A stretch of DNA of 42,537 nt from Cryomorphaceae bacterium (GTDB lineage: Bacteria > Bacteroidota > Bacteroidia > Flavobacteriales_D > Cryomorphaceae), in NCBI GenBank assembly GCA_003565555.1, contig PXBH01000220.1:1-42537 (forward strand), read 5' to 3'. The notes beneath the pieces are model-generated. The model worked only from the letters and a program-made list of their open reading frames with translations, made no database searches and was not told the DNA's origin. Of the stretch, positions 26,261-35,297 are shown in pieces. The position numbers and the translations under genes are program-made. Each line of letters starts with the position of its first letter. Position 1 is the stretch's first letter.

Positions 26261-26533
26261 CTATTTCGGAAAGTACTTGTAGATATCCTTTCTCGGAAGC
26301 ACACGAACCAAAATCACAGTCTGATCTTCGAGTTCTGCGCCAATTCTAAAGTCCTTGATTTTCTTTCTATAGTACATCCTCGCGCCACTTTTGAGCTTTT
26401 TCAAATTTGATACTTCGGACAAGCGTTGTGCCTCTTGAATTTCCATAATCGCATCGGCAATCGCACGGCGAATAACCGGATCTTTAATTTTCTTCAGATC
26501 CTTGGTAAAAGTCCGTTCGATTTTGAGATTCAC
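26261..26533 (-). CDS. RelE/ParE-superfamily toxin
   Basis: The 90-residue protein has the RelE/ParE fold signature: N-terminal ERTFTKDLKKIKDPVIRRAIADAI, LKKLKSGARMYYRKKIKDFRIGAEL in the central sheet, and TVILVRVLPRKDIYKYFPK at the end, with the HR(K)xDIYK-type terminal motif. Such toxins cut mRNA in ribosomes or inhibit gyrase; the sequence does not tell which. The GTG start overlaps the antitoxin's TGA in the tetranucleotide GTGA, the usual coupling of these pairs. Confidence 0.85.
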   Translation of the reverse strand: MNLKIERTFTKDLKKIKDPVIRRAIADAIMEIQEAQRLSEVSNLKKLKSGARMYYRKKIKDFRIGAELEDQTVILVRVLPRKDIYKYFPK

Positions 26534-30963: not shown

Positions 30964-31383
30964 TTAATACCCCAAACTCTTGATAAATGCCTCTGCAGTC
31001 ATTACAGGAATCGCGGAACTTTTAAAATCCCGTAAATTTCTTGTTATGATTACCTCTTGATGACTACCGAGAGCTGTATGATACTGTAATGAATCTTCGA
31101 AGTCATTGAAGGCGGAATCATGTAATGCTTGTGAAAGAATGCCATCTGTCAAATCGATTGAAGTACAAACATTTTTCAGTTCGACCAGTGCCGATTTTAC
31201 AGCAGCTTTGCTATTGGACTTTTTAAGAATGTAATGTGCATTGGCAAAACTCAAAACCGACGCGGACAAAACAATCTCTTTCCTATACCCTAAATCAAAG
31301 AGAATTTCCGTCCATTGAAAGTAGTTCTCGCGCTTGGCCAGCAGATCAATGATGATGTTGGTGTCGACAAAAACCCGCGTCAC
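30964..31383 (-). CDS. PIN-domain toxin (VapC-like)
   Basis: The 139-residue protein begins MTRVFVDTNIIIDLL with the first PIN-domain aspartate (D7). Further acidic residues lie in FNDFEDSLQYHTALG and ITRNLRDFKSSAIPVMTAEAF, completing the metal-binding set of a PIN ribonuclease. VapC toxins cut tRNA or rRNA. The GTG start overlaps the antitoxin TGA (GTGA, 31380-31383). The end, AFIKSLGY, lies before a gap without genes. Confidence 0.88.
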   Translation of the reverse strand: MTRVFVDTNIIIDLLAKRENYFQWTEILFDLGYRKEIVLSASVLSFANAHYILKKSNSKAAVKSALVELKNVCTSIDLTDGILSQALHDSAFNDFEDSLQYHTALGSHQEVIITRNLRDFKSSAIPVMTAEAFIKSLGY

Positions 31384-31625
31384 TTATACTTTTTTTCAAG
31401 GTGGTCGCGGTAGTCTTTACGGTAATCATAGTCCTCAGGAAGGGTGACTATTCCACTGAGTTTTTTCACCTGCTTGCTGATGGGTCGTCCATCCTGCTGC
31501 TTGTTGGTGAGCAGTTCCAAATAAGTTTCAATGAGTCGGGACAAACTGATATTGTGTGCCCGCGCATAGTCTTTGGCCTTGCCGATGACTTCCTGATTGA
31601 GCTTAAGGGTGAGCTTGGAATCCAT
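31380..31625 (-). CDS. Antitoxin of the PIN-domain pair (DUF6364-like)
   Basis: From the ATG at 31625 the protein has 81 residues (MDSKLTLKLNQEVIGKAKDY, ARAHNISLSRLIETYLELL). The first half is a ribbon-helix-helix-like DNA-binding unit; the second half, KQVKKLSGIVTLPEDYDYRKDYRDHLEKKY, is a typical toxin-wrapping tail of the DUF6364 type. A frame extension to a TTG at 31646 is unlikely because the promoter box TATTTTTG sits directly there. It is the first gene of the pair, coupled to the toxin by a 4-nt overlap. Confidence 0.8.
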   Translation of the reverse strand: MDSKLTLKLNQEVIGKAKDYARAHNISLSRLIETYLELLTNKQQDGRPISKQVKKLSGIVTLPEDYDYRKDYRDHLEKKYK

Positions 31626-31643
31626 GATTTCTTGCGTTACGTA

Positions 31644-31651
31644 CAAAAATA
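31644..31651 (-). promoter_or_regulatory. -7 promoter element of the VapBC-like operon
   Basis: The minus strand reads TATTTTTG, matching TAnnTTTG, 18 nt before the antitoxin ATG at 31625. Confidence 0.5.
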
Positions 31652-31773: not shown

Positions 31774-32886
31774 CTAATTTATCAGCTTCTTGTAAGCTTC
31801 TTGAAGTCTCTCAGCATACCCCTCCACCCCCCATCCCTCCGTCACATGCTCCCTGATCACCTCAGGCTCAAACTTATTTATTCGTCCCGCCATAGTCCGC
31901 ATCCCTTCGGCGATGGCTTCCTCGCTTTCGGGGTCGACCTGCATACCGACTTTCGGATCGAAATAATCCCGGGGCCCCGTGCGGTCAGTGAGCAGGACGG
32001 GCAGGCCGGTGCTCATGGCCTCAAGCGGCACCAGACCGAAACTCTCATGGAGGCTCGGAAACACGAGGAAGGACGCCGCGTGGAAATATTCCAGCATTTG
32101 CTCCCGGAAAAAGAATCCTTCGTGAAACTCGACCCGGCCTTCGAGACTGTGGGTTTCAATAAATGACCGAATATCCGCAGCCTCCTCCCCTTCGCCGGCG
32201 ATGGTGAGGGTGTAGCCGGGCAGTTGATCAGCCGTTTTTGCGAAAGCGCGCAAGGTGCGCAGGGCGCCTTTGAAATCGTCGAGGCGGCCGAGGCAGAGGA
32301 TATTTTTGCAGGTGCTGAGGGGCGCGCTGCGCAGGGAAAAAAGCTCAGTATTTACCGGATTGCCGAGCACTTCGATGCGTTTCGGCTGTATGCCGCTCGC
32401 CGCAATTTCATCGGCGAGGTGGCGGCTCACGGGCATGAGGCAGTCGGCGGCTTCCATCACCTTTTTTACCCGGCGCAAGATGTAGGGTCTGTCGCTGATC
32501 GTGCTCCATGGACCGGTGTGCTCGGTGACCACGAGCGGCACTTCCCAATGTTTGGCCAATTTTGCCGCAAGGCCGCCCCGCAAAGCTGCGCCGTGGAGGT
32601 GGATGATATCGGGCTTCGGAATGCGCTTCGCCGCCCGAAAGGCCTGCCGCTCCCAAAGTGCATAAGCCGCTGCATTCAAAGGGCCGGGCCACTTGCGGTC
32701 GAAAAGGTGGAAATCCACGAACCGCGCCATGTCGGTTTCGCGGTAAGCCCCGCGGTCATAAGGCCCGGTATTGAATACCGTAGTTTCCGCAAAGCTGCTC
32801 AGCGCCCGCACCTGGTCTTGCATAAACACCCCGGCATTGGGGTGGTCTTCGCTCGGGTACATTTCGGGGATGAGGAGTACACGCAT
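31774..32886 (-). CDS. Glycosyltransferase family 4
   Basis: The 370-residue GT-B protein begins MRVLLIPEMYPSEDHPNAGVFMQDQVRAL, typical of GT4 enzymes. It has HLHGAALRGGLAAKLA, VVTEHTGPWS, NPVNTELFSL, the C-terminal LGRLDDFKGALRTLRAF and the donor-site motif FLVFPSLHESFGLVPLEAMSTGLPVLLTD. It probably transfers a sugar in glycan assembly at the inner membrane. Its ATG follows the MazF-like toxin stop by a single nucleotide, so it is probably transcribed and perhaps translated from the toxin-antitoxin operon. Confidence 0.92.
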   Translation of the reverse strand: MRVLLIPEMYPSEDHPNAGVFMQDQVRALSSFAETTVFNTGPYDRGAYRETDMARFVDFHLFDRKWPGPLNAAAYALWERQAFRAAKRIPKPDIIHLHGAALRGGLAAKLAKHWEVPLVVTEHTGPWSTISDRPYILRRVKKVMEAADCLMPVSRHLADEIAASGIQPKRIEVLGNPVNTELFSLRSAPLSTCKNILCLGRLDDFKGALRTLRAFAKTADQLPGYTLTIAGEGEEAADIRSFIETHSLEGRVEFHEGFFFREQMLEYFHAASFLVFPSLHESFGLVPLEAMSTGLPVLLTDRTGPRDYFDPKVGMQVDPESEEAIAEGMRTMAGRINKFEPEVIREHVTEGWGVEGYAERLQEAYKKLIN

Positions 32887-32887
32887 G

Positions 32888-33220
32888 TCAGTACCGCAGC
32901 AGGTCGTTTAATGTACGGTGCAATTTCATCATTTCAGCTTCAGCAATTCTGCCCACACGTTCAGTAAGTTGATTTTTAGAGATCGATCTCACTTGAGAAG
33001 TAAGCACCTCAGAGACTTCTTCCAAGCCGTTTTCGATTGCAGGGCTCAAAATGAGGTTGCCGTGGTAGTTTTTGATTTTTGTAGTAAGCGGGCAGGCAAT
33101 GACAAACTCCGTGTGGGTATTGAGCAGGTTGCCACTGATAATGAGCACAGGCCGGAAGCCCGCCTGCTCCCGGCCTGTGACGGGGTTCAAGGTCGTCCGC
33201 CATATTTCACCCTTCTTCAT
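32888..33220 (-). CDS. MazF/PemK-family mRNA interferase
   Basis: The 110-residue protein begins MKKGEIWRTTLNPVTGREQAGFRPVLIIS, the classic PemK/MazF opening (GEIWxxxLxPxxGxEQxGxRPVLIIS with the catalytic Arg). It goes on with VIACPLTTKIKNYHGN and EVLTSQVRSISKNQLTERVGRI, the second conserved block. It cuts single-stranded RNA at short motifs. It overlaps the antitoxin gene by 14 nt and is followed by a glycosyltransferase ATG after 1 nt. Confidence 0.93.
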   Translation of the reverse strand: MKKGEIWRTTLNPVTGREQAGFRPVLIISGNLLNTHTEFVIACPLTTKIKNYHGNLILSPAIENGLEEVSEVLTSQVRSISKNQLTERVGRIAEAEMMKLHRTLNDLLRY

Positions 33221-33449
33221 CCTCGAGCTGCTTATAATACTCGTTCATACCTTCTTCGGCGAGCGCAAGCACATCTTCGTCGTGCTGCATTCGCTTGTAC
33301 GACTTCAGGTAGGCGGCTTTATTGAGCTGATCGAGGTAGGCCCTCAGAGCCCTTTCGATAAGCTGATTCTTGGGTATGGAGAAAGCCTCTGCCTTTTCAG
33401 CAAGCAGTGCCAGAAGATCTTCGGGCAGTGAACTGGTGAAGGTTTTCAT
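33207..33449 (-). CDS. Ribbon-helix-helix antitoxin of the MazF-like toxin
   Basis: The 80-residue protein begins MKTFTSSLPEDLLALLAEKA, EAFSIPKNQLIERALRAYLD, a ribbon-helix-helix DNA-binding domain. An acidic C-terminal tail (DEDVLALAEEGMNEYYKQLEDEEG) for toxin binding follows. It is first in the operon and should repress it. The repeat island begins about 60 nt upstream of its ATG. Confidence 0.87.
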   Translation of the reverse strand: MKTFTSSLPEDLLALLAEKAEAFSIPKNQLIERALRAYLDQLNKAAYLKSYKRMQHDEDVLALAEEGMNEYYKQLEDEEG

Positions 33450-33506: not shown

Positions 33507-33547
33507 TTTCCGAAACAAATACGTCACATCGCTCCCGATTTTTGTCT
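33507..33547 (-). repeat. Methyltransferase 3'-end repeat, copy A
   Basis: About 40 bases matching the 3' end of the methyltransferase gene (copy C, 34581-34629) in the same orientation. On the minus strand it reads ...CGGGAGCGATGTGACGTATT... and would encode the gene's final SDVTYLFRK, but carries a 1-nt deletion. Confidence 0.8.
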
Positions 33548-33622
33548 TTGTGCGGATTCGACATGTTACTTGATGCAGACAATGGGTGAAGTGATGAGAT
33601 TAAGCTCATCTCTTTGATCATA

Positions 33623-33778
33623 AGATCCTTCCCTTCGGTCAGGATGACATGGCCCATGATTATGAGGTGGGCGGTTTGGGGAGAGAAAACGGGGCGGCTG
33701 TGCCGCCCCGTTTTCTCTCCCCAAACCGCCCTTATAGACCCCAAGGCTTACTGTCATCCTGACCGAAGGGAAGGATCT
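33623..33778. repeat. 156-nt giant nested inverted repeat
   Basis: Outer arms of 27 nt (33623-33649 and 33752-33778) are perfect reverse complements and contain the core CCCTTCGGTCAGGATGAC. Inside them is a second, independent perfect hairpin with 30-nt arms (33669-33698 and 33702-33731) and a 3-nt loop TGT. Two stems of this length without mismatch would fold very stably as RNA or single-stranded DNA. Confidence 0.92.
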
Positions 33779-33821
33779 CATGCTTAAGCGATTACTTCCG
33801 GGTACCTCTATATGCAATTGC

Positions 33822-33870
33822 TTTCCGAAACAAATACGTCACATCACTCCCGAATTTTTGCCGCAAAGGC
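33822..33870 (-). repeat. Methyltransferase 3'-end repeat, copy B
   Basis: Forty-nine bases matching the methyltransferase 3' end with about six differences, in the same orientation. On the minus strand it keeps an open frame encoding LRQKFGSDVTYLFRK and then continues into unrelated codons to a TAA. Confidence 0.85.
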
Positions 33871-34046
33871 TAATTCGAGTCTGTCCATAAAGTCCATTTG
33901 CGGCGTTGCACTTGGATTGAAAACAGTCATCCGTACGGACTCCCCGCTTTTCAACCCTACGCGCGCCTTGCTACTAAACTTTCGACCGAAGGGAGTCCGT
34001 CCGAACTGAATCAGACTCTCTACTAAATGGACAGACTCTAATTCGA
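33871..34046. mobile_element. MITE-like unit with 8-bp direct repeats and inverted ends
   Basis: Direct repeats TAATTCGA occur at 33871-33878 and 34039-34046. Just inside them are inverted ends GTCTGTCCAT (33879-33888) and ATGGACAGAC (34027-34036); counting the overlap the arms match over 12 bases. An inner inverted pair ACGGACTCCC (33935-33944) and GGGAGTCCGT (33991-34000) lies near the middle. No coding capacity. The layout fits a small non-autonomous element with a target duplication, next to copy B of the methyltransferase end. Confidence 0.65.
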
Positions 34047-34081
34047 CCTTAGCATATGCCGTGGTGTGCATTGAGTAATAT

Positions 34082-34545
34082 CTAAAGTTTCAGCGTAAAT
34101 TAATACTGAGCGTACCTAACGGCACGCAGGCTGCATAGGAAACAGCGTAACGACGGGGATAAATCCCCTCCTTACCACAAAGGGTGTACCTAAAGGCACG
34201 CCTGCTATTCAGCAAGATCACCTGCCGGTGAATAAGGCAAAGTCCTTGCGCTCAAAATTCTTGGAGCAACCGCCTGAGGGAGGCACGTCGATGCGTTCAA
34301 ATGGTGTGGGCCAATCATGTAAACGAAGGGTCGATGGCTACTTTCAGAAGAGAAGCTGCCCCCTCATAAGCAATACTTTAAATCGAAGATCAACACCCCG
34401 CGTCGTCAGATACGGCTCGTGTGGTAAGCCCGGGTTTCAACCGGGGTGTTATGATGTGCCATAGAAAAACACGTGCCGTTAGGTACGTTCAGTGTAAACT
34501 ACCCAAGATACCATCAATCGAAACTCTCAAGCTCCGAAACTTTAG
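34082..34545. mobile_element. 464-bp inverted-repeat element, no transposase
   Basis: Ends CTAAAGTTTC (34082-34091) and GAAACTTTAG (34536-34545) are inverted. A second inverted pair of 22 bases with one mismatch (34105-34126 and 34472-34493) contains CGTACCTAACGGCACG exactly. A related direct copy, GTACCTAAAGGCACGC, lies at about 34187-34202, and GGGGATAAATCCCC forms a palindrome at 34156-34169. A 78-codon frame on the plus strand (34228-34464) has no recognisable protein features. This resembles a REP/MITE-like element or a structured RNA; no family could be named. Confidence 0.6.
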
Positions 34546-34571
34546 TTTACCAATTCCACTGCGAGGATTTC

Positions 34572-35297
34572 TCATCCCTTCTTCCGAAACAAATACGTCA
34601 CGTCGCTCCCGCTTTTTTGCCGTAAAGGCCGCTCGGCATCTCCGAAATAACGGCGGGTAAGTTTGTACTTGAGTTCATTGCTGAAAAGCCGCGAAAAACC
34701 GAGAAAGCTCTGGTTGTACCGAAAACTCCGCACGAGTTCAAATCCGCCCGCCTGCACTTTTTGCAGCAGCTCCGGTTCGGGAATTTTATTGAGCGCATAC
34801 TTATCGATACCCGCCGCGCGCCGCGTGCGCAGGTAGGTGAAGATGAGTTTGGCAAACCAATGTCGGCTGTCAGTGCTTTGCAAGATGAGCATGCCGCCCG
34901 GCTTCACGAGGGCCATGCTCTGCTCCAGAAAGTTCCAAGGGTCTCGAATGTGGGCGAGTATTCCGATATTCAACACCAGGTCATAGCGGCTCGCGCCAAA
35001 ATCATGGGCGTAGAAGTCGCCGCGAATAAAGACGAGTTTGTGATTGTCCTTTTCGGAAAATCGGCTTCGGGCCGTGGCGATCATATTTTCTGAAAAGTCC
35101 ATCAGGGTCAGCTTTCCGAAGTGATGGATGTAAGGCGCAGATATATCGCCGGTGCCGCAGGGCATGTCAAGCACTTCGTCAAAGTGCTGTGCGCCGATAA
35201 AGCTGCCCACGGTTTCCATGCGGATGCGCAGGTTGTAATTGAAAGTAAGGTAGTGGTCGGTCTTTTCGAAAAAAGCCTTCACTTCGTCGGTGTTCAT
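34572..35297 (-). CDS. Class I SAM-dependent methyltransferase
   Basis: The 241-residue protein has the SAM-binding motif I in VLDMPCGTGDISAPYI (residues 42-57), motif II around LTLMDFSENMIATAR and LVLNIGILAHIRDPW. LVKPGGMLILQSTDSRHW follows. It probably methylates a sugar or lipid-linked glycan intermediate. The ATG overlaps the acyltransferase stop (ATGA), so the two genes are coupled. Its last 16 codons, LRQKSGSDVTYLFRKKG, are present in two further partial copies downstream. Confidence 0.9.
   Translation of the reverse strand: MNTDEVKAFFEKTDHYLTFNYNLRIRMETVGSFIGAQHFDEVLDMPCGTGDISAPYIHHFGKLTLMDFSENMIATARSRFSEKDNHKLVFIRGDFYAHDFGASRYDLVLNIGILAHIRDPWNFLEQSMALVKPGGMLILQSTDSRHWFAKLIFTYLRTRRAAGIDKYALNKIPEPELLQKVQAGGFELVRSFRYNQSFLGFSRLFSNELKYKLTRRYFGDAERPLRQKSGSDVTYLFRKKG
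34581..34629 (-). repeat. Methyltransferase 3'-end repeat, copy C (in the gene)
   Basis: This is the copy that forms the end of the methyltransferase gene. Copies A and B, 1.07 kb and 0.76 kb away in the same orientation, match it. The three together bracket the nested hairpin and the two inverted-repeat elements. Confidence 0.85.

Follow-up and report, generated by a model that had tools for sequence, protein, structure and literature searches.

As far as assembled sequence can tell, truncated copies of the 3′ ends of host genes, here called stubs, clearly recur beside toxin-antitoxin genes in the genome of a bacterium of the family Cryomorphaceae, which suggests that toxin-antitoxin pairs arrive by recombination anchored in the neighboring gene and not as site-specific cassettes. 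The window that we analyzed is one entire contig (PXBH01000220.1; 42,537 nucleotides) of a 3.72-Mb assembly, and it holds a methyltransferase gene (MT) whose 3′ end is present in three copies, designated A, B, and C. Along the direction of MT, the order is MT with its end C, a spacer containing E1 and M2, copy B, a spacer containing M3, copy A, mazE, mazF, and GT4 (Table 1); the giant hairpin (M3), the MITE-like units, and the MazEF-like pair (32888-33449) named in a preliminary description of this DNA are all present at the locus. The relatives compared include Cryomorpha ignava (G004), G001, G002, G003, G006, G007, ALOHA_ZT_11 (L045), and MAG28 (L048), and the sequences compared are metagenome assemblies, taken without read support for the window.

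Table 1. Features of the MT locus (positions in the window) and stubs at other loci of the same genome
Feature	Location	Strand	Details
MT, SAM-dependent methyltransferase of an exopolysaccharide-type cluster	34572..35297	-	ORF; Pfam Methyltransf_25, E=1.4e-15
Copy C, functional MT 3′ end	34582..34629	-	Stop TGA at 34572-34574
Element E1, 464 bp	34082..34545		Terminal inverted repeat CTAAAGTTTC; strongly structured
MITE M2	33877..34038		Termini GAGTCTGTCC/GGACAGACTC; >10 relatives in the genome
M2 target-site duplication TAATTC	33871..33876		Second copy at 34039-34044
Copy B, in-frame MT-end stub (GCC..CGGAA)	33823..33870	-	TTG, AGT, and GAT codons as in G002
Hairpin element M3	33614..33787		36-nt outer arms, 30-bp perfect inner hairpin; relatives on C41, C67, and C180
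Copy A, MT-end stub	33508..33555	-	At the ancestral MT/mazE junction
mazE-like antitoxin (RHH/CopG type)	33207..33449	-	Pfam RHH_1
MazF/PemK toxin	32888..33220	-	Pfam PemK_toxin, E=7e-26
GT4 glycosyltransferase	31774..32886	-	Directly after MT in relatives without mazEF
M1-peptidase stub, 82 bp	C48		Brackets UPF0175-DUF3368 and an M2-family MITE
carB stub, 45 bp	C75		Brackets a ParD-like ORF and ParE
nifU stub, ~70 bp	C188		Brackets a 75-aa ORF conserved in G002
Epimerase stub, 239 bp	C95		Brackets DUF6364-PIN

A repeat search returned one family of three direct copies, with B as the reference, to which C and A correspond at 90% and 75%, respectively, and the best match to the MT end downstream of MT has a score of 71, where 300 shuffles reached no more than 28. 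The three direct copies proposed in the preliminary description are thereby confirmed, but they are not strictly the last ~45 bases of MT, since the repeat block ends ~10 nt before the stop codon. When up to 3 mismatches are allowed, a 20-base core is found in the entire assembly at exactly three places, all of them at the MT locus, so that the genome-wide scattering of the motif that would have spoken against the attachment-site proposal of the preliminary description is absent. Translated in the MT frame, the copies end in ..RQKSGSDVTYLFRKKG* (C), ..RQKFGSDVTYLFRKAIAYRGTRK* (B), and ..IGSDVTYLFRKCL* (A); A and B are truncated at their 5′ ends and keep the reading frame, and homology between their left flanks and the upstream sequence of MT is not significant. 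Copy A, whose clear likeness extends over ~36 to 39 nt only, ends in FRKCL*, and its stop codon, TAA as opposed to the TGA of C, lies ~48 nt before mazE. Three of the differences between B and C are synonymous, and there B agrees with G002, so C is the working end that evolved on under constraint and B a frozen remnant of an older version. Both A and B clearly appear to be non-functional, decaying remnants of the MT gene end.

The empty arrangement of the region, with MT and GT4 5 to 15 bp apart, is found in G001, G003, C. ignava, and G007. ALOHA_ZT_11 has MT, ~41 bp, mazEF, and GT4, with no gene-end copy, and its MT stop corresponds to the position of copy A, which aligns to this sequence with a score of 33, above all 1000 shuffles. 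Because copy A sits where the intact MT end of this relative abuts mazE, it marks the old MT/mazEF junction. In G002, MT is followed by ~720 bp of other noncoding DNA, mazEF, and GT4, and the alignment of its pre-mazE sequence with the window begins at the last bases of copy A (TTGTTTC...), so an old MT-end stub may have decayed in front of its mazE. In MAG28, a member of another genus, MT is truncated, and the order after it is a DUF433 gene, an antitoxin-like ORF, a ParE toxin, a fragment of the GT4 start (76 bp), repeats, a remnant of the DUF433 3′ end (72 bp, 82%), an MT-end stub (19 of 21 bases), mazEF, and GT4; the pile-up between MT and GT4 occupies L048:4500-6600. Its antitoxin-like ORF and the ORF at the nifU locus (see below) show no mutual similarity. 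MAG28 and the other relatives together indicate that in two genera or more, toxin-antitoxin genes and pieces of gene ends have collected in the gap between MT and GT4. None of the relatives has either segment between the copies cleanly missing at the repeats, and the mazEF pair of the window lies beyond A, not bracketed by MT-end copies.

The window holds a second toxin-antitoxin pair, composed of a DUF6364 antitoxin-like gene and a PIN toxin (30964-31646), which directly follows GT4 and is of the same kind as the pair bracketed by the epimerase stub; no GT4 stub was found. A ParE-type toxin (26279-26524) adjoins an asparagine synthase-like gene, and no gene-end stub was found around this toxin, either.

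Most of the length of the two segments between the copies is accounted for by M2, M3, and E1, so that what had been described as insertion-like segments proves to consist mostly of MITEs with terminal repeats of their own and not of cassettes ending at the gene-end repeats. M2 qualifies as a MITE by its terminal inverted repeats, 6-bp target duplication, many genomic relatives (several of them likewise flanked by 6-bp, AT-rich target duplications), and lack of an ORF; MITEs nevertheless explain the segments between the copies, not the gene-end copies themselves. E1 has 10-bp terminal inverted repeats with no clear target duplication seen and folds far better than its shuffles (z of -6.1, plus strand); its outer arm motif is found again in this genome at C149 and C188, and G002 has longer relatives at three places or more. 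An Rfam scan of E1 alone brought no family near threshold, and E1 is possibly an RNA-like structured mobile element. Rfam matches on the M3 hairpin were rejected as microRNA-like chance hits, and a search of a plasmid collection gave no match. The ends of these elements differ from those of the copies, the one exception being the M2 target duplication, which abuts the start of B. M2, M3, and E1 are thus clearly separate from the gene-end copies, and they would have transposed into the spacers later, independently of stub formation.

A survey of 1.31 Mb of the genome, with a few stretches overlapping, matched the ends of 1,114 ORFs against the 3 kb that follow each of them. Once repeat proteins, noncoding repeats, and ordinary paralogues had been set aside, it left stubs of MT and of the M1-peptidase, carB, and nifU genes, and a search that started from toxin genes contributed a fifth, that of an NAD-dependent epimerase gene. 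These host genes have no relation to one another, the stubs range from 45 to 239 bp, and their scores exceed those of all shuffles. The ParD-like ORF at the carB locus matches TIGR02606 (E=1e-6, below the cut-off of that model), and the 75-aa ORF at the nifU locus has no family match. In G003, G006, and G007, carB has as its immediate downstream neighbor the gene that here lies behind the carB stub, so the stub occupies the native site, and the module was inserted between it and carB; relatives are without a second copy at both the carB and the peptidase loci. If, as we estimate, a few percent of genes directly precede a toxin-antitoxin module, three coincidences of stubs and toxin-antitoxin genes are unlikely to have arisen by chance.

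No stub was found near two further ParE genes or two further PIN genes, three more ParE neighborhoods have repeats that either are not gene ends or are doubtful as such, and no nifU stub was seen after the antitoxin-like ORF of G002. Direct repeats flank two ParE genes at L210 (1137-1190 and 1858-1911; 54 bp) and L213 (1022-1056 and 1937-1971; 35 bp), and these were rejected as not clearly gene ends. Also rejected were an SSB pair on C180, which is an ordinary tandem paralogue, and the survey matches L071, L073, L105, L119, L134, and L150, which are repeat-domain proteins or noncoding tandem repeats; those at L073:742-1400 are long, with ~250-bp units and GCAGCATTTGCAATGC-type palindromes. A HEPN-type gene at L159:10100-11309 has a near-identical second copy of its 3′ part (282 bp) upstream of the nucleotidyltransferase-HEPN-like pair to which it belongs.

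Gene and stub have stop codons of different types at a homologous position in all five loci (besides MT, peptidase GGG TAA/GGA TGA; carB AGG TAA/AGG TGA; nifU GTT TGA/GTT TAA; epimerase TTG TAG/ATG TGA), which suggests that the copies are diverged alleles and not fresh duplications. Moreover, the identity between gene and stub ends at or just before the stop, with the spacers not included, and this, combined with the differing stops, points to diverged alleles that had different downstream neighbors. Differences between the epimerase gene and its stub fall at codon positions in the ratio 8/7/20, a third-position excess that leans toward diverged alleles but is not decisive, as the gene copy alone would also gather such changes.

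The explanation that we favor, and to which we give roughly even chances, is that the stubs are gene-end scars of homology-anchored insertion. DNA would have been joined into the MT 3′ end by recombination anchored in MT itself, the incoming fragment carrying a diverged version of the MT end together with downstream DNA. The fragment could have entered with one side recombining homologously and the other being joined illegitimately, a process termed homology-facilitated illegitimate recombination that is described in naturally competent species, or it could have circularized and undergone a single crossover; the gene would remain whole, and its 5′-truncated old end would be left before the native downstream sequence, here mazE. 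Homology-facilitated illegitimate recombination predicts just such a picture: homology anchors one side, the other side is joined illegitimately, and part of the recipient gene is left behind. It is known from experiments with selected fragments, whereas here it would be read from scars. Both entry routes are described in an E. coli test (PMC3240628). We infer the recombination route, the donor, and the action of the same process at MT as at the other stubs; no donor allele or exact join was found.

MT itself appears to have served as an anchor for recombination with diverged DNA on its upstream side: protein identity between G000 and G002 is 59 to 65% upstream of MT and 86 to 94% from MT onward, and the shift lies inside MT, where identity at third positions goes from 54% to 71%. 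The recombined block lies upstream, and this event is therefore not the one that produced the stubs. Set against L043, MT (34572-35297) marks a change in G002 divergence from ~40% of amino acids upstream to ~14% or less from MT on.

Several observations count against homology-anchored insertion. No toxin-antitoxin gene lies between C and B or between B and A, and the presence of two stubs at MT calls for two events or a later local duplication; the 3′ half of MT is orthologous to that of G002, including the TGAGA after the stop, so that a foreign replacement of C is unsupported; and the ORF bracketed at nifU is without a family match. The events behind the stubs are old. What is supported of the earlier proposal is that these gene 3′ ends are scars of insertion, as indicated by the joining of MT and GT4 in relatives, the placement of A at the junction, and the other loci; its attachment sites bracketing cassettes are not supported.

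A possible, if unlikely, source of the stubs is long target duplication, in which an addiction module inserts by an unknown mechanism and duplicates 45 to 240 bp of its target, such that gene and stub are identical at birth and diverge later. Restriction-modification genes are reported to insert with "long and variable target duplications" (PMC3031569), work for which Nobusato et al. 2000 is cited there and in PMC2654758, and the latter also cites long target duplication for toxin-antitoxin systems. The architecture is the same: at the peptidase, carB, and epimerase loci, an addiction module is enclosed by two long copies, in direct orientation, of a target that is otherwise single-copy. The likeness to the restriction-modification cases extends to a small module, no transposase, and an intact gene; the difference is that the modules here are toxin-antitoxin pairs and the repeats are gene 3′ ends resembling diverged alleles. 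Stop codons that differ in type in five loci while keeping their position, and identity that fails to run into the spacer, argue against this mechanism.

It is unlikely that the copies arose by plain tandem duplication of the gene end, through slippage or unequal crossing-over, with later interruption by MITEs and a merely fortuitous link to toxin-antitoxin genes. A and B do have one derived base in common, and with the MITEs removed, the three MT copies would lie ~120 to 150 bp apart (computed from element lengths), but no tandem unit is visible, because the sequences following the three copies are mutually unrelated, and at least three of the four other stubs bracket a toxin-antitoxin pair, with no stubs seen among 341 ORFs of the relative G007. 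Distinctly improbable is a dedicated route aimed at gene 3′ ends by which the toxin-antitoxin modules of this lineage would move, carrying or copying the last 45 to 240 bp of the host gene, the stub being the footprint of arrival.

Site-specific integrative cassettes with gene 3′ ends as attachment sites, the reading first put forward for this locus, are very improbable: gene 3′ ends are preserved and the survey matches include 3′-end stubs and no convincing 5′-end stubs, but no recombinase ORF lies between the copies, the target genes are unrelated, stub length and stop codons vary, and the inserted elements and the copies have different end points. Tyrosine recombinase-type integrative elements likewise lie between an intact gene, on their upstream side, and a displaced gene end, whereas here there is no integrase in the segments, no common core (that of MT occurs at its own locus, and the other stubs derive from unrelated genes), and a diversity of targets; nor was the integrase ORF of an integron-type gene cassette found at the locus.

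A literature search, with subscription journals mostly outside its scope, returned no description of toxin-antitoxin modules bracketed by host-gene stubs. The closest precedent is the insertion of restriction-modification genes with long target duplication. How chromosomal toxin-antitoxin modules spread without transposases is an unsettled question, and a host-gene stub beside a module offers a legible trace for which any genome can be screened. By comparing gene and stub, one can tell true target duplication apart from recombination between diverged alleles, a test that is also applicable to the long target duplications reported for restriction-modification genes.
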